From Akkermansia sp. (GTDB taxonomy: Bacteria; Verrucomicrobiota; Verrucomicrobiia; Verrucomicrobiales; Akkermansiaceae): a stretch of DNA of 64,000 nucleotides. Below the pieces are notes generated by a model, which searched no databases, was not told where the DNA came from, and saw nothing but the letters and a program-made list of their open reading frames with translations. Each line of letters starts with the position of its first letter. Position 1 is the first letter of the stretch. The stretch is from positions 124,001 to 188,000 of the forward strand of contig JAFWZG010000054.1 of assembly GCA_017517385.1 (NCBI GenBank). The letters are read 5' to 3'. Positions 2,143 to 10,016 of the stretch are shown here, one piece after another. Made by a program: the position numbers and the translations under genes.

Positions 2143-2224
2143 GGCATAATCTGAGATGAGATTACAAGAACTCTTTTTGGAGTCTTTTCTCCCTCTCTCC
2201 ATACCACATACAAGCGCATCACTT

Positions 2225-3157
2225 ATGAAAAAGCATTTATACGGCTTACTGTTAGCGGCAGCTTTGCCTGCCACTGTATCTACTGCACAGGCTGATGATT
2301 ATACAGGCTGGCAAGCTACTCACCCGGAGTGGACGATGGTGTTCAATGATGATTTTTCCGGCACGCGCTTGGATACTACTAAATGGAATAGGTTTGAGTA
2401 TGTGAACTGGACCGTTGATTGGTCTCGCTATCAGTCCCGAGATGAATCCTTAGTGACAGTAAACGGGGATGGCACTGTTTCCTTGTGGGGTAAGTATGGC
2501 GACTATACCAGCCAAAATGACCCAACAGGCGCTAATGATACCTATGCCTGCGGCGGTATCTTTACAGACAAGACCTTCACTTTCCAATACGGATATGTGG
2601 AGGTTCGTGCCAAGTTCGACTGCGCACAGGGCGCTTGGCCTGCGATTTGGATGATGCCTACCGCTGGTCCTTGGCCTCAGACGGGAGAAATCGATATTAT
2701 GGAGCATTTGAACAGGGACGGCATCATTTACCAGACAGTGCATTATAATAACCAATGGGGTAATGCCGTTTCTAATTCAACCGTAGGCGCAAATGGCACC
2801 AGCACCGCATACTTCATGACGCAGGAAGAGAAGGCGGCATTCCATACGTATGGTGTAGAGTGGACTCCGGAGGCAGTTACTTTCTATATGGATGGTAGGA
2901 GCACCCTCACCCTCCAAACACAGGAGGGCAACCCCAATTGGCCTTTCAACAAGGACAACAACCCCTATTACCTCTTGCTGGACATGCAGTTAGGTGGAAG
3001 TTGGGTAGGTGATATCGGTGACATAGGTGACGGAGTTGCCATGACTATTGACTATGTGCGTGTCTACTCCACCCCCACCAATGTGCCAGAACCCACTACA
3101 GCTACATTGAGTCTGTTAGCTTTGGCTGGCCTGGCAGCACGTCGGCGCAGGCGATAA
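2225..3157 (+). CDS. Secreted GH16 family glycoside hydrolase with PEP-CTERM anchor
   Basis: The 310-residue protein begins with a signal peptide (MKKHLYGLLLAAALP, cleavage near AQA-DD) and then one GH16 beta-jellyroll domain. The GH16 catalytic signature E-I-D-I-M-E is at residues 155-160, with Glu155 as likely nucleophile, Asp157 as helper and Glu160 as acid/base. The nearby WPAIWMMP is typical of laminarinase-like members that cut beta-1,3 or beta-1,3-1,4 glucans; some gut relatives act on mucin O-glycans. The C-terminus has VPEPTTA, a hydrophobic stretch and a run of arginines, which is a PEP-CTERM signal handled by an exosortase. The substrate cannot be read from sequence. The gene has its own promoter and terminator. 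Confidence 0.9.
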   Translation: MKKHLYGLLLAAALPATVSTAQADDYTGWQATHPEWTMVFNDDFSGTRLDTTKWNRFEYVNWTVDWSRYQSRDESLVTVNGDGTVSLWGKYGDYTSQNDPTGANDTYACGGIFTDKTFTFQYGYVEVRAKFDCAQGAWPAIWMMPTAGPWPQTGEIDIMEHLNRDGIIYQTVHYNNQWGNAVSNSTVGANGTSTAYFMTQEEKAAFHTYGVEWTPEAVTFYMDGRSTLTLQTQEGNPNWPFNKDNNPYYLLLDMQLGGSWVGDIGDIGDGVAMTIDYVRVYSTPTNVPEPTTATLSLLALAGLAARRRRR

Positions 3158-3328: not shown

Positions 3329-3357
3329 TTGCAATTATTCCCATATCATGGTAATAT
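3329..3357 (+). promoter_or_regulatory. Promoter of the phosphatase-kinase operon
   Basis: TTGCAA at 3329-3334, a 17-base spacer, and TAATAT at 3352-3357. Transcription would start near 3364, downstream of the ATG at 3348, so translation from 3381 is favoured. Confidence 0.6.
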
Positions 3358-3380
3358 GCTCGGAGAAAGAGCGGGAAGAC

Positions 3381-5510
3381 ATGCAAAGGAAGTTTCTCAC
3401 ATGGCTGCTGGTGCTGATATGTTCGGCGTTTGCCGTGGCAGGACTGCTGTCATTCCTCCAGTTCCAGAGACAAGCGGAATCACGAGCGAAGGCTCTCATG
3501 AGCAATCGCCTCTATGACCTTATGCTACTGATTCGCTTCACACAGGATAACATGCGCCATGTGGAGCAGATTAATGACCGCAGCACACTGGAACGAACAA
3601 GAGCCGCAGCCAGAATCATTAGCCAAAATCCGGCCATTATAAAGGATTACGAGCTCATGCAAGGCCTGTGCAATGAACTTGGCGCCACGCAGCTCTGCAT
3701 TAGTAACGAAGAAGGGACCATCGTTGCAGGCGTTCCGAAAAATGTCGTTGGCTTTAAATTGGGAGACCACGAACAGAGCCGCTACTTTCTTGACTGTATC
3801 AATGAACCGGGGCATGAATTAGTACAGCGCCCCAGAAACAGTGCATTGGACGGCAAACTACTGCAATACGCAGGCGTGACACGCCCGGATGCGCCCGGCG
3901 TACTCCAGCTGGGCTTTGCTGTTCAGCATGAGCAGTCTGTACGTGAAGCCATCGGGCTTGACACTCTGATTGAGCAGGTCATGCAGGGAGCGAGTGAGCA
4001 TGTTATTGCCTTCCGTGATGGCCAGTTGCTGAACCGTGGTGCTCTGAATCTCCCCACATCCACCCTGCTCTCACAGCCGCTGAACTCAGTAGGCGAGGTA
4101 AGTACAGGTGGTGTGAGCTATGCTACATATGCCATTGAAGAGAACGGTATCCGCCTTGTCTCCTTCATGCCGTGGCAGGAAATTAGCAAGGTGAGCTTCA
4201 AATCTCTGCGTTATATGCTGCTGAGCAATATGGTATTGTTCTTGCTCATGTTCGTGATTGTGTGGTGGCTGCTGCGCATTTACGTGCTGAGCGGTTTGCA
4301 GCGTATCAATAATGGGCTTCGCCGTATAACTGAGGGGTATACGGAAGAAAGAATTGAGGAGAAAAGCACTCCGGAGTTCACAAGGCTCTCTACCGGTATC
4401 AATGCGATGGTGGATTCGTTACAGTCATATGCTGATCAGAAGCGAGAACACCTTATGAAAGAATTGCATCTCGCAGCGGCAATTCAGCATACCGTGCTCC
4501 CCAGCAAGTTTCCGGCTTTCCCAGACAGAACAGATTTTGATATATATGCCTCGTGTCTTCAGGCTCAGACGGTAGGCGGAGATTTCTATGACTTTTTCAT
4601 GCCGGATGATAAGCACATCTGCTTCTTGCTCGGAGATGTGTCAGGCACTGGCATCCCCGCAGCGCTGTTCATGATGCGCGCCATCTCTATCATCCGCGAA
4701 CTGGCAAATACCGGAGCAACACCCCGAGAACTTGTTACTGGCACTAATAAAATCCTTTGTCGAGAGGGGGCGGACATGAAGCTTTCTCTCTTCTACGGGC
4801 GCCTGAACGTCTCCACCGGAGATCTTCGCTTTGTAAATGCCGGCACACCACAGGCTCTGCTCTGCCATGTCAGTGGAAACTATGAGATGCTAGCCATGCA
4901 TTCTGGCGCAGTATTAGGGGCATATTCAGGAGCAGCCTATAGTGAATGCCGCTTCCATCTGCAGCCCGGAGACAGGCTTTTCCTCTATACCCAAGGTGTG
5001 ATAAACGCCACAGACTCTGAGCATACCCCCTTCGGAGCGGCACGTCTTCAGGAGGCTCTCACGCGGGAAACAAGCTCGGTGTCTGAAACTATACGCGGAA
5101 TTCGAGCAGCTCTCCAGCAATTCACTGGCAATATGGAACAAAAGAGCGATATTACTATGCTGTCGCTTGAATACCGAGGAAAGTGGACAATCAATTACCA
5201 CACGTCCTTTACTGCAGGTGAACCTGCAGCATTTGAGAAAACGCTGCAAGAAAAACTAGAAAGCGTATTTGCCGCTCCGGATAGTATTACAGAATTACAA
5301 GCTGCCGTCACCGCCATACTTAATGTATTTGCGCCGGATACCCGGGTGCATATTCAGTTACGCTGCAATGAACAGGAGGCAAGACTTACCCTGACTTACA
5401 ATCAGCCCCACTTTAATCCTCTCATAGTTCTGCCGCACCTGCCGCTAGATAAAATCACCTTCCTTACTTCACAGGAAAGCAGCACACTTAAACTGCGAAA
5501 ATCTCTCTGA
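3381..5510 (+). CDS. Membrane sensor SpoIIE-type PP2C serine phosphatase with a degenerate C-terminal RsbW-like domain
   Basis: A 709-residue signalling phosphatase. One membrane helix near residues 5-27 is followed by an extracytoplasmic sensor region of about 240 residues, possibly Cache-like. A second helix lies near 275-303, then a HAMP-like linker to about 350. The PP2C/SpoIIE domain spans about 358-595, with metal-binding Asp in GGDFYD (Asp401) and GDVSG (Asp419), followed by NAGTP. Such enzymes dephosphorylate serines, often on STAS anti-anti-sigma proteins. Residues about 600-709 resemble an RsbW-type HATPase (AVTAILNVF, then QPHFNPL), but the ATP-binding DxGxP motif has decayed. The stop overlaps the kinase start by one base (TGATG). 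The start at 3381 is set by the promoter. Confidence 0.88.
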   Translation: MQRKFLTWLLVLICSAFAVAGLLSFLQFQRQAESRAKALMSNRLYDLMLLIRFTQDNMRHVEQINDRSTLERTRAAARIISQNPAIIKDYELMQGLCNELGATQLCISNEEGTIVAGVPKNVVGFKLGDHEQSRYFLDCINEPGHELVQRPRNSALDGKLLQYAGVTRPDAPGVLQLGFAVQHEQSVREAIGLDTLIEQVMQGASEHVIAFRDGQLLNRGALNLPTSTLLSQPLNSVGEVSTGGVSYATYAIEENGIRLVSFMPWQEISKVSFKSLRYMLLSNMVLFLLMFVIVWWLLRIYVLSGLQRINNGLRRITEGYTEERIEEKSTPEFTRLSTGINAMVDSLQSYADQKREHLMKELHLAAAIQHTVLPSKFPAFPDRTDFDIYASCLQAQTVGGDFYDFFMPDDKHICFLLGDVSGTGIPAALFMMRAISIIRELANTGATPRELVTGTNKILCREGADMKLSLFYGRLNVSTGDLRFVNAGTPQALLCHVSGNYEMLAMHSGAVLGAYSGAAYSECRFHLQPGDRLFLYTQGVINATDSEHTPFGAARLQEALTRETSSVSETIRGIRAALQQFTGNMEQKSDITMLSLEYRGKWTINYHTSFTAGEPAAFEKTLQEKLESVFAAPDSITELQAAVTAILNVFAPDTRVHIQLRCNEQEARLTLTYNQPHFNPLIVLPHLPLDKITFLTSQESSTLKLRKSL

Positions 5511-8119
5511 TGAAACTCTCTCCGCTCAACTCAGCGCCTCATGGTGCGCCGCCTCCTCCCATTGTTCCCCCTGGTGCAGCGAATCCGCCCCCCCCGGTTC
5601 ACCCCATATTGGAGGAGACCGATGCTATTGCACCAGAGCCTGTAACTGAACCTGCAGAAACAGGCAACCAACGCGCCCCCCTACCCCCGGAAACGCAAGT
5701 AGGAGAATATATTATTATATCCAAACTCGGTCAAGGAGGATTTGGTATTACTTACCGGGCACGCCACTGCACGCATGGCTCTATCGTGGTTATTAAGGAG
5801 CATATTCCGACTAATCTTGCCATGCGTATGCCCGGAAGTACCTTCGTGAGCAGCATATCTCCGGAGACGGATGAACGCTTCAAAGCCACCCAGGCCGAGT
5901 TCATGGAAGAAGTCGTGGTGCTCATGGGGTTGGAACATCCGGGCATTGTGCCCATTATCTCCGGTTTTGAAGAAAACGGTACAGCTTATTACGTGATGCC
6001 GTATGTGGAAGGTAAATCACTAGAGCTGCCGGAACAACCTACACTGGACAAAACACGCCAGGCAATGGAGGCTCGCAAGAATAAGCAGCTACTGCGTTCT
6101 CTGCTTTATACTTTGGAATACATGGAGCAGCACGGAATTGTGCACCGCGATATTAAACCGGAAAATATCCTTGTAAATACCGAGGGCCGCCCCATCCTGC
6201 TTGACTTCGGCTCCGCTCGTCAGCATCAGGAAGGGAAAATTTACACCAACATCTACACGCCTGATTTTTGTGCTCCGGAGCAAAGCACTGCCCGTACAGA
6301 TGCCCAGATGAGCGCGGCCATAGGCCCGCAGACGGATATATATGCGCTAGGTGCTACCTTTTATTACCTTATCACTCGCCTGCTCCCACCGAAGTCCGAA
6401 ATGCGCGTACTCGCCTCACCGGATCCGTACAAACCCTTGGCCGGGCGACCTTATTTGGAAGAGTTTTACAGCCGCCACTTCCTGCAAGCAATAGACCGAG
6501 CCCTTTCCTTAGACCCGACAGAACGCTGGAAGAGTGCTGCCTCTTGGCGTGACAGCATGGAAAGCGGCATCATCCCCCCGCCATCTGGCCTCATGCGCCG
6601 TATGCGTATTCTCATGACATCTAGCGTAGCCATCGTCGTTACTTTGGCAGCGCTGAGCATATGGGCGCTTAAAGAAAAAGAGCAGGCTATGAAAATTTAT
6701 AACAACAGCCTCACCTTCACTGAGGGCATGCTCTATGATTTTAACGATGAGCTTGCAGACATCCCAGGCTCTACGGCTTTGCAGCAGCAGCTGGGTAACA
6801 ATCTCAAAAATTACCTTAATTCCATGGAGAGTCTCCCTATCGCTCAAGATGAAACACTTCAGCGAGCGCTGGCTATCGCATGGAAAAACCTTGGTTCCGT
6901 ACATGTTCAGCAAGGAGAACTGGCTGCTGCAACGGACGCTTACCGGAATGCTACGAAACTTCTGCAGTCCCTTCATGATGCATATCCTGATGACCAGCGC
7001 TACCGCTTTGAACTGGCACGCACTTGGTTGCTGCGTGCGGAGGTAGGACGAAGGCGTAACATGAACGAGCAGGCTCGAATACTTGTGAGCCAAGCGCTGA
7101 ATGTGTTGCGCTCGCTCTGCGATCAGTCGCCGGACAATCCTGATTATCGCTGCGAACTCGGGAAAGCCATGGATTACTCTGCACGCTTTGCTATAATCTC
7201 CGGAAATCTTTCCATGAATAGCTTGACTATTGATAACATGGTTCGCATGTTCCGAGAGCTCATCGCCAAATACCCACGGCATGAAAATGCTCGTATGGGT
7301 CTGGCTCAGGCTCTCATCAGCCAAGCGAATGTTCTAATGGAGGCGGAAGATTTTAGTACAGCAAATCTTCTTCTCAATGAGGCGCATGATATATACACGT
7401 CTCTTGCTACCTCACATCCTCACCGATTGTCATTCAAAGTCGGCCTTTCGACCGAGACATACGCCCGAGGATTGATGCATATGCTCATGAGTACCGCAGC
7501 TACCAATGGTACAGTGCGCCATAAGCATGATGAAGAAGCCATGATTGCCTTTAAGCAAAGCATTTCGCTTTCAGAAGAGCTGGAATCCCTTGATTCTAAT
7601 AACACGGACTATCTATTCCAGCAATGCCGAGCCATGTCCTACATGATTGAAATCATGCTGCGCCGCCATCTTTACAATCAGGCGGAAGCGTACTGTAACA
7701 CAGTCATGCAGAAAACGGAACGCCTGCTTGCCACCGCTCCGGGTAATGTGGAATATTCCATGATTGTGGCCGGGGCACACCGAGGAAAAGCCATCGCGTA
7801 TTCCTCCAATGAACAGCGTAGCGCAAGCGCCACTGAGGAGTTCGAAAAATATCGCAGTATTGTTCGGCAGTTACTGCAGGATTCCCCTGCTAACCCGCGG
7901 CTTAAAACTCTTTACACGGATGCTCTCATAGAATCAGCAGCACATGCCATCGTGCGCGGCAGGCATGAGGATGCAAAAATGTGGCTGGAGCAAGCCACAG
8001 TACTGCTGGCTGACATAGTACGGCGTGAGCAAGATAATGCGACAGCTCATAAATATCAGCAACGGGCACGTGAACTCCTTGAGAGCATTTCTGAGCCGCA
8101 CCCCACGCAGGCAGAATAA
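5510..8119 (+). CDS. Membrane-anchored Hanks-type serine/threonine kinase with long helical repeat tail
   Basis: An 869-residue kinase. A proline-rich N-terminus (about 1-55) precedes the catalytic domain with the G-loop GQGGFG near 73, the VVIKEH lysine, the catalytic loop HRDIKPEN (Asp214) and DFGSARQ (Asp232), so it should be active. A single membrane helix near 366-387 leaves about 480 residues of helical, TPR-like repeats on the other side. These probably bind proteins or an envelope signal. The start overlaps the stop of the phosphatase by one base, so the pair are translationally coupled and likely act on the same phosphoprotein. The same kinase-helix-repeat architecture is common in Verrucomicrobia and Planctomycetes. 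Substrates are not identifiable. Confidence 0.92.
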   Translation: MKLSPLNSAPHGAPPPPIVPPGAANPPPPVHPILEETDAIAPEPVTEPAETGNQRAPLPPETQVGEYIIISKLGQGGFGITYRARHCTHGSIVVIKEHIPTNLAMRMPGSTFVSSISPETDERFKATQAEFMEEVVVLMGLEHPGIVPIISGFEENGTAYYVMPYVEGKSLELPEQPTLDKTRQAMEARKNKQLLRSLLYTLEYMEQHGIVHRDIKPENILVNTEGRPILLDFGSARQHQEGKIYTNIYTPDFCAPEQSTARTDAQMSAAIGPQTDIYALGATFYYLITRLLPPKSEMRVLASPDPYKPLAGRPYLEEFYSRHFLQAIDRALSLDPTERWKSAASWRDSMESGIIPPPSGLMRRMRILMTSSVAIVVTLAALSIWALKEKEQAMKIYNNSLTFTEGMLYDFNDELADIPGSTALQQQLGNNLKNYLNSMESLPIAQDETLQRALAIAWKNLGSVHVQQGELAAATDAYRNATKLLQSLHDAYPDDQRYRFELARTWLLRAEVGRRRNMNEQARILVSQALNVLRSLCDQSPDNPDYRCELGKAMDYSARFAIISGNLSMNSLTIDNMVRMFRELIAKYPRHENARMGLAQALISQANVLMEAEDFSTANLLLNEAHDIYTSLATSHPHRLSFKVGLSTETYARGLMHMLMSTAATNGTVRHKHDEEAMIAFKQSISLSEELESLDSNNTDYLFQQCRAMSYMIEIMLRRHLYNQAEAYCNTVMQKTERLLATAPGNVEYSMIVAGAHRGKAIAYSSNEQRSASATEEFEKYRSIVRQLLQDSPANPRLKTLYTDALIESAAHAIVRGRHEDAKMWLEQATVLLADIVRREQDNATAHKYQQRARELLESISEPHPTQAE

Positions 8120-8162: not shown

Positions 8163-10016
8163 ATGGGAGCTTTGGCACATCGTATCAAACTCGGCTGGAA
8201 AGGCCTGCGCCTCTATCTGGCACAGGGAATGATTGACCTTCTTCCTGCTCGCCATGCCCTTAGCGGGTACAATCTTTCTAAAGCCGGCCGAGACACCAAG
8301 GCCGCGCTGGATGTAGCGCTGGTGGGATTGCCGCAAGGCATGGCCTTCGCGGCCATGGCTGGGCTGGATAGTATATATGGCATCATGGCTGCCACTGTAG
8401 GTACATTCATTGCACCTCTTTTTACACGTTGTAGTCTGACGGTCAGCGGGCCAAGTAATGCCACAGCATTCATGTTGGCCAGCTTCTTTCTTGCCTCTTC
8501 TCCGGCCATACAGAGCCAGCCCGCAATTTTCGTTCCTCTGATTGTATTCTTGGCCGGGCTGGTATGCGTCATTGGCGCCTTTGTGAAAGCCACAGAGATG
8601 CTGCAATTTGTGAGTCGCAGCGTTCTGGTAGGTTATATCACAGGTGCGGCAACTCTCATTATCGCCTCTCAGCTGCGGTATGTGATGGGCATTAATGATG
8701 TAAACGCCGGTAGCTCATTCTTTACAATGAGCTCAGCCATTATTAATAATCTGGATAAGGTACAATGGCAGCCAATAGTGTTAGGCGTGCTGTCATTCCT
8801 GATGTTTATCCCGCTCAAGAAGCACTTTAAGTTCCTTCCTACCTTTGCGGTGATTCTACTGACCATGAGCGTGCTGAACTGGGCGCTCAGCCAGCCATGG
8901 GCCGGTGGTTATTTTGCGGATGTTCGCATGCTCAAAGACTTCACCATGAGTGATCTCACATGCACGCCGCCCTCAGTATGGGCTATCTCAGGGCATCTGG
9001 CAGAACTCTTCCCCGTCGTTATCGGTATAGCGTTCCTCTCCACGCTGGAACAGACCGTAATGAGCAAGACGCTTTCAGCAAAGACAGGTGAGCCGGTCAA
9101 TCTCAATCAGGACACATTTGCCGTGGGTATGGCTAATATCGGATCAGCCTTCACCACATCTCTCCCCTGCTCAGCTTCACTTACCCGCTCCATGCTGAAT
9201 TATACAGCTGGCGCTGCGACGCGTTTTTCCGGCGTTATTTGCGGCCTGCTTTGTCTGGGTATCACCTTTGTACTGGCCAGCTTCCCCATCATCTCCTGCA
9301 TACCACACAGCGTACTTGCAGCACTCGTGCTGGCTAATGCCGTATCACTGTACGATAGAAAACTGCTGCGCATCTGTTTCCGCTCCACTAGAGGAGATGC
9401 AGTAGTACTACTTATCACCTTCATAGCATCACTTCTACTGCCTCTTCACATTGCCATTTTCGTGGGTGTTGTCATCTCCGTTTCCCTCTTCCTGAGAAAA
9501 GCCGCTAAGCCGGAGCTAGTAGAATACACCTTTGATAAGGAAGGTACTCTCATGGAAGTGAGCAGTCAGGCTAGCCGCCTGCCTCAGATTTCCATTGTCC
9601 ATGTGGAGGGCGACCTCTTTTTCGGCGCTGCGGATCTCTTCCGCAAACAGGTATCTCGTATTGCGGAAGATTCCTCACTCGCCGTCATCGTTCTCCGCAT
9701 GAGGAATGCTCGCAATCTGGATGCCACCTCCGTCTGCGCTCTGGAAGAACTCATTAAATTCACACGAGAGAAAGGCCGCCACCTAATCGTATCCGGCGCA
9801 GGGCGCCAAGTTTTCCGTGTTCTACGCAAAAGTGGTGTGCTAGAGGTTCTGCAGGCAGACTGTGACCGCAGCAAGGGTGAAAGCAACATCTTCATTTACG
9901 AACCGAAGAACCCGAACATCTCCACCCGTAAAGCCCTCATGCGTGCCCAGAAGCTTCTCGGCACCCGTGATGCTGACATCTCGATTTACACCACAGAGAC
10001 CCACACGACTGCCTGA
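8163..10016 (+). CDS. SulP-family anion transporter with STAS domain
   Basis: A 617-residue inner-membrane transporter of the SLC26/SulP family, which moves sulfate, bicarbonate or other anions. The membrane domain fills about residues 45-445, with the family segment VALVGLPQGMAFAAMAGL near the start. A cytoplasmic STAS domain lies at about 474-575 (ISIVHVEGDLFFGAAD, NLDATSVCALEEL). Substrate is not evident; the nearby cysK would fit sulfate but is in another transcription unit. The stop overlaps the mutY start (TGATGATG). The STAS domain directly downstream of a kinase/phosphatase pair could be regulated by it, which is inference from neighbourhood only. Confidence 0.92.
   Translation: MGALAHRIKLGWKGLRLYLAQGMIDLLPARHALSGYNLSKAGRDTKAALDVALVGLPQGMAFAAMAGLDSIYGIMAATVGTFIAPLFTRCSLTVSGPSNATAFMLASFFLASSPAIQSQPAIFVPLIVFLAGLVCVIGAFVKATEMLQFVSRSVLVGYITGAATLIIASQLRYVMGINDVNAGSSFFTMSSAIINNLDKVQWQPIVLGVLSFLMFIPLKKHFKFLPTFAVILLTMSVLNWALSQPWAGGYFADVRMLKDFTMSDLTCTPPSVWAISGHLAELFPVVIGIAFLSTLEQTVMSKTLSAKTGEPVNLNQDTFAVGMANIGSAFTTSLPCSASLTRSMLNYTAGAATRFSGVICGLLCLGITFVLASFPIISCIPHSVLAALVLANAVSLYDRKLLRICFRSTRGDAVVLLITFIASLLLPLHIAIFVGVVISVSLFLRKAAKPELVEYTFDKEGTLMEVSSQASRLPQISIVHVEGDLFFGAADLFRKQVSRIAEDSSLAVIVLRMRNARNLDATSVCALEELIKFTREKGRHLIVSGAGRQVFRVLRKSGVLEVLQADCDRSKGESNIFIYEPKNPNISTRKALMRAQKLLGTRDADISIYTTETHTTA

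Follow-up and report, generated by a model that had tools for sequence, protein, structure and literature searches.

A putative membrane sensor with degenerate SpoIIE- and RsbW-like domains encoded together with a Hanks-type kinase in Akkermansia sp.

Introduction

Escherichia coli RssB is a response regulator and protease adaptor that is not known to have an RsbW-like lobe, a transmembrane sensor, or a paired kinase gene. Its PP2C fold is without phosphatase function, and a PP2C switch has been proposed to couple input to binding in this protein (PMC5468089). Another pseudo-PP2C, TAB1, is a regulatory subunit of the Ser/Thr kinase TAK1 and carries substitutions at D239 and D282 (PMC8622459). 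Mycobacterium smegmatis RsbW3 is an RsbW homologue that has no kinase activity and acts by protein binding (PMC7693655). In Rv1364c of Mycobacterium tuberculosis, an RsbU-RsbW fusion (3ke6), a PP2C domain is followed by an RsbW-type domain in one chain. The metal ligands of the PP2C fold have been assigned in Bacillus subtilis SpoIIE, in which Mn1 (the M1 site) is held by D628, D746, and D795, and the M2 site is formed by D610, D628, and G629 (PMC3517971).

Here, we analyzed a gene pair in a 64,000-nucleotide stretch of Akkermansia sp. DNA (the window). An earlier note on this DNA had described the first gene as encoding a SpoIIE phosphatase with a decayed RsbW-type kinase domain, and had proposed a partner switch in which the fused kinase was exchanged for the separate Hanks kinase encoded by the second gene. 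The literature searched contained neither an account of these two proteins as a pair nor a report of a Hanks kinase paired with a single chain that carries both pseudoenzymes.

Results

The two genes are arranged as follows.

3381..5510, + strand: predicted sensor pseudophosphatase of 709 aa, in the order transmembrane helix, extracytoplasmic sensor, transmembrane helix, HAMP, degenerate PP2C (SpoIIE), degenerate RsbW-like domain (ORF, Pfam, and family-wide alignment)
3393..3449, + strand: first transmembrane helix, residues 5-23 (hydropathy; also a helix in the AlphaFold model)
4233..4289, + strand: second transmembrane helix, residues 285-303 (hydropathy)
4281..4424, + strand: HAMP domain (Pfam PF00672, E 8.6e-6, above the cut-off)
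4533..5174, + strand: PP2C/SpoIIE domain with a degenerate metal site (Pfam and Foldseek)
5178..5507, + strand: degenerate RsbW/SpoIIAB-like domain, with the N box replaced and the ATP lid and G2 box deleted (profile, AlphaFold, and Foldseek)
5510..8119, + strand: Hanks-type Ser/Thr kinase, whose start shares one base with the pseudophosphatase stop (TGATG; ORF and Pfam)
5711..6529, + strand: kinase catalytic domain (PF00069, E 6.3e-35)
6608..6664, + strand: kinase transmembrane helix, residues 367-385 (hydropathy)
6872..7330, + strand: TPR-like repeats beyond the kinase membrane helix, predicted to be extracytoplasmic (PF13428 and PF14559)

The open reading frame of the sensor protein spans 3348-5510; we preferred the start at 3381 because orthologues start at that Met. 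Its two membrane helices presumably flank an extracytoplasmic sensor domain, for which a PDB sequence search returned no matches. We placed the TPR-like repeats of the kinase outside the cytoplasm because of the charges at the ends of the membrane helix. Just upstream (2156-3157) is the gene for a secreted GH16 glycosidase carrying a PEP-CTERM sorting signal, and directly downstream (8163-10016) the gene for an anion transporter of the SulP type that ends in a STAS domain.

The window protein has a PP2C fold and matches the SpoIIE family (PF07228, E 7.5e-40; PP2C structures in Foldseek searches). With the full model, the top Foldseek match was Rv1364c (E 2.3e-18, 344 columns). The family membership asserted by the earlier note is thus confirmed. 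The active site, whose loss that note had overlooked, is not intact: only one of the three M1 ligands (D419) is retained, while Q538 and S589 substitute for the equivalents of D746 and D795. The relevant residues are located as follows.

4581..4583, + strand: D401, equivalent of SpoIIE D610 (M2 ligand), retained (alignment)
4635..4637, + strand: D419, equivalent of SpoIIE D628 (M1/M2 ligand), retained (alignment)
4992..4994, + strand: Q538, where SpoIIE has metal ligand D746; TDG to TQG (alignment; residue roles from PMC3517971)
5145..5147, + strand: S589, where SpoIIE has metal ligand D795; DDxT to SDIT (alignment)

The D795 position was assigned by a profile alignment to SpoIIE structures that extends to the DDxT motif. 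By the chain coordinates of this alignment, the first Asp of the motif is D795, on the assumption that the 242-residue chain consists of four tag residues and SpoIIE 590-827. The second Asp of DDxT is retained in the window protein (D590).

Loss of the two ligands extends across the family. The D795 equivalent is absent from all 29 family rows (26 distinct sequences), which have S, T, Q, K, E, H, R, or L instead. The D746 equivalent is lost from 27 of the 29, with Asp retained only in L009 and L010 and Glu occupying the position in six rows. Both equivalents are retained in 83 of 83 other SpoIIE-family proteins examined, which were chosen by query similarity, a choice that may favour the first metal loop, not the D746/D795 motifs. 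Among these 83 is the second SpoIIE protein of the same genome. Since the lost-ligand positions drift freely, the pattern speaks for a loss of catalysis rather than the acquisition of a new fixed chemistry. Further ligands have disappeared in some family members that retain the operon: the M2 Asp is also lost in L014-L016 (GGD to GGG), and the D628 equivalent in L025/L026 (GDV to GTV). In these members the decay has advanced further.

Residual or altered phosphatase activity would be compatible with the sequence, in which D401, D419, and D590 are retained. We therefore weighed the alternative of a normal kinase-phosphatase pair, in which only the RsbW part is dead and the PP2C domain, still active through an unusual metal site, removes phosphate from the partner kinase or from that kinase's substrates. 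Besides the retained M2 ligands and D590, the six rows with Glu at the D746 position favour this alternative, and kinase-phosphatase operons are common. We nevertheless consider it unlikely, given the loss of two M1 ligands, the occurrence of eight different residues at D795 with no fixed new ligand, and the additional losses in L014-L016 and L025/L026 in spite of a conserved operon.

The earlier note had assigned the C-terminal 110 or so residues to the RsbW type and had suggested structure prediction and a HATPase profile search for residues 600-709. The profile search did not help: Pfam detected no HATPase match in the C-terminal part alone, only weak unrelated ones. A profile-profile comparison (hhalign) of 26 orthologous C-termini with intact RsbW-type C-termini from Clostridia, Synergistetes, and other relatives gave a probability of 94% over 111 columns. 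None of 30 control profiles with shuffled columns exceeded 0.8%, which rules out a chance resemblance. AlphaFold modelled the domain with a pLDDT of 87 and the secondary-structure order E-H-H-E-E-E-E, from an alignment of 23 family sequences that included no intact relative. When this model was compared with the PDB by Foldseek, ranks 1-19 were all SpoIIAB, RsbW, or UsfX (top match 1til_E, E 1.3e-7). The predicted structure has a GHKL fold with RsbW topology, from which one helix and the lid are missing. The assignment to the RsbW type was thus borne out.

The motifs quoted in that note, AVTAILNVF and QPHFNPL, were indeed found at the catalytic positions. The N-box helix reads AVTAILNVF where intact relatives have DELFSNIA (the catalytic DELF-N box), and the G1 loop, DxGxPYDPL in intact relatives, reads NQPHFNPL in the window protein. 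In addition, about 24 residues with the ATP lid and the GGLG box (G2) are deleted. The clade belongs to a single Akkermansia-type genus of gut bacteria. None of its members that retain the domain still has the ATP-site motifs (N box, G1, and G2), which have been deleted or replaced, and a search of close orthologues for an intact ATP site found none in the clade. With the N box, G1, and the lid and GGLG box lost, ATP binding by the C-terminal domain is very unlikely, and its sequence and model identify it as a collapsed RsbW/SpoIIAB domain. The distant member L028 has lost the C-terminal domain entirely.

Both folds are retained under purifying selection despite the lost active sites. We calculated dN/dS for the close orthologue pairs L015/L016 and L025/L026, in which dS is informative (0.25-0.29 in the PP2C domain), and obtained 0.04-0.06 for the PP2C domain and 0.07-0.12 for the C-terminal domain. 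Full-length open frames and coupled starts are found in orthologues down to 31% identity. The low dN/dS (0.04-0.12) and the open frames argue against a pseudogene, a reading that we rejected. The switch helices show equal conservation in the pseudo clade and in active relatives (mean pairwise identity 53% in each); the two lost-ligand regions are less conserved than in active relatives (56 vs 70% and 49 vs 61%). The loss of both active sites, and of the whole C-terminal domain in L028, could be taken to mean that the protein is a functionless decaying remnant carried along with the kinase. This reading is largely refuted by the coupled full-length frames and the dN/dS values, and we assign it a negligible likelihood. 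Taken together, the sequence data argue strongly that neither the PP2C domain nor the fused RsbW-type kinase has enzymatic activity, and that both have been kept as folded modules.

Like RssB, the window protein would thus be a non-phosphatase with a PP2C fold. It shares with Rv1364c the order of a PP2C and an RsbW-type domain in one chain, but its RsbW domain lacks the N box, G1, and G2, its PP2C domain lacks two metal ligands, and it has a membrane sensor and a Hanks kinase instead of a partner-switch context. M. smegmatis RsbW3 differs from it in being a stand-alone protein in the SigF partner switch.

The second gene encodes, as the earlier note had stated, a separate, membrane-anchored Hanks kinase joined to the first by a one-base overlap. 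Its catalytic motifs are intact: the G-loop, the Lys (VVIK), HRDIKPEN, and DFG are all present in 29 of 29 family members examined. The kinase gene overlaps or abuts the sensor gene in every locus with both genes, the start codon nearest the upstream stop lying -19 to +1 nt from it (29/29). At the L011 locus, the contig edge is reached before the kinase. Three genomes of the genus carry a full-length kinase relative (36-37% identity) without the pseudophosphatase (L121, L122, and L123 in G001, G003, and G030), and the kinase can thus sometimes do without the sensor. In L121 and L122, the sensor-less kinase adjoins an ORF that we take, from its sequence, to be htpG-like. Genomes G016, G045, and G055 each contain two divergent copies of the pseudophosphatase-kinase pair.

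Having established the state of the two proteins, we turn to their relatives and genomic context. No Hanks kinase was found with relatives that have intact active sites, whereas the neighbourhoods of these relatives commonly include STAS and RsbW-type genes or domains. L114 (G005, same genus) and L034 (Flexilinea) share the sensor-HAMP-PP2C layout with the window protein (32-34% identity over the shared part), but their active sites are intact, separate intact RsbW and STAS genes are adjacent, and there is no Hanks kinase; in G005, the phosphatase gene lies between the STAS gene and the RsbW gene. Another genome of the genus, G012, encodes an intact fused SpoIIE-RsbW protein followed by a STAS gene (L127:4999-7724), a canonical fused partner switch. 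By contrast, loci of the clade have no small STAS gene and no intact RsbW beside the pair. In a maximum-likelihood tree of the HAMP-PP2C part, the pseudo clade, including L028, forms one side of a 99/99 branch. The degenerate C-terminal profile matches seven of the 289 genomes in the phylum sample, all in one of 152 genera. In the simplest history, a canonical partner switch would have undergone fusion with RsbW, lost STAS and both active sites, and become paired with a Hanks kinase; we infer this direction because the intact form is taxonomically widespread.

These data bear on the proposal of a partner switch in which the fused RsbW was replaced by the Hanks kinase, with kinase and phosphatase acting on one STAS protein, for instance through the STAS domain of the SulP transporter at 8163-10016. 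The transporter gene, with its STAS domain, begins only 43 bp after the kinase, and STAS genes often adjoin the intact relatives. However, of the other neighbourhoods examined, only that of the close relative L031 has the SulP-STAS gene as well, and for this lack of conservation we rejected SulP-STAS as a general partner. No clade member has a small STAS gene near the pair, and the phosphatase half is degenerate, with two of three M1 ligands lost. In the genome that contains the window, no RsbW-type ATPase (HATPase_c_2) was detected above the cut-off. The only stand-alone STAS protein of this genome is divergent, and its gene neighbours a DUF2851 gene on a different contig (C85); of the other two STAS domains, one belongs to the window's SulP transporter. 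An exchange of kinases within a partner switch, which the earlier note had favoured, is therefore highly improbable. With neither a phosphatase nor a conserved STAS partner, both halves of a partner switch would be missing, and the sequence data suggest that the pair is not a working one.

Discussion

Our findings suggest that a 709-aa membrane sensor derived from a partner-switch phosphatase, with both of its own enzymes dead, probably regulates the co-expressed Hanks kinase. The sequences show co-expression and the shared pattern of losses, and direct binding of the kinase is putative. The extracytoplasmic domain would sense a signal, which would pass through HAMP and the linker helix and reach the switch helices of the PP2C domain, as in active phosphatases of this fold. 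The resulting change in the switch would alter a binding surface (the PP2C face, the RsbW-like lobe, or both) rather than catalysis. This surface may hold the kinase or its substrate, so that kinase activity goes up or down, the live kinase being the output.

The roles of the two proteins might also be reversed, with the kinase as input and the sensor protein as output. The dead PP2C-RsbW body would then be a decoy or adaptor that binds a sigma-like, STAS-like, or protease target, and its phosphorylation by the kinase would control this binding. Precedents exist in RssB, a PP2C pseudoenzyme adaptor (PMC5468089), and in mycobacterial RsbW3, a kinase-negative RsbW homologue that acts by binding (PMC7693655). 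A transmembrane sensor and HAMP domain on the pseudoenzyme fit input better than output, however, and no candidate target is linked to the pair, which makes this arrangement quite improbable.

If the sensor is instead the input, as we prefer, the pair would resemble the eukaryotic TAB1-TAK1. In both cases a pseudo-PP2C goes with a kinase, and two metal aspartates are substituted at positions that we read, from the PP2C motifs, as equivalent (D239/D282 of TAB1 and D746/D795 of SpoIIE). TAB1 has no HAMP domain, membrane sensor, or RsbW domain, and the kinship that we claim is that of the PP2C fold only; the sensor-kinase interaction is putative here. We tentatively propose, as a plausible but far from assured reading, that the locus encodes a bacterial, transmembrane counterpart of TAB1-TAK1 in which two dead partner-switch enzymes directly gate a co-translated Hanks kinase. 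If true, this would show a sigma-factor switch converted into a receptor-kinase pathway.

Annotation pipelines will call the protein a phosphatase, which it very likely is not. The locus offers a case in which both catalytic halves of a partner switch appear dead while the sensing and binding scaffold is retained and tied to a Hanks kinase. Two questions thereby become accessible to experiment: the route by which extracytoplasmic signals reach bacterial Hanks kinases, and the possible reuse of the PP2C allosteric switch in the absence of catalysis, which has been proposed for RssB.

The sensor could also have a different physical target, either one of the genome's other Hanks kinases (approximately 38 matches in all) or a partner of another kind. 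In this 2.66-Mb genome, the 38 family matches, several of them clustered (contigs C37, C50, C92, and C99), stand against two SpoIIE proteins and one other PP2C, an unusual excess of kinases.
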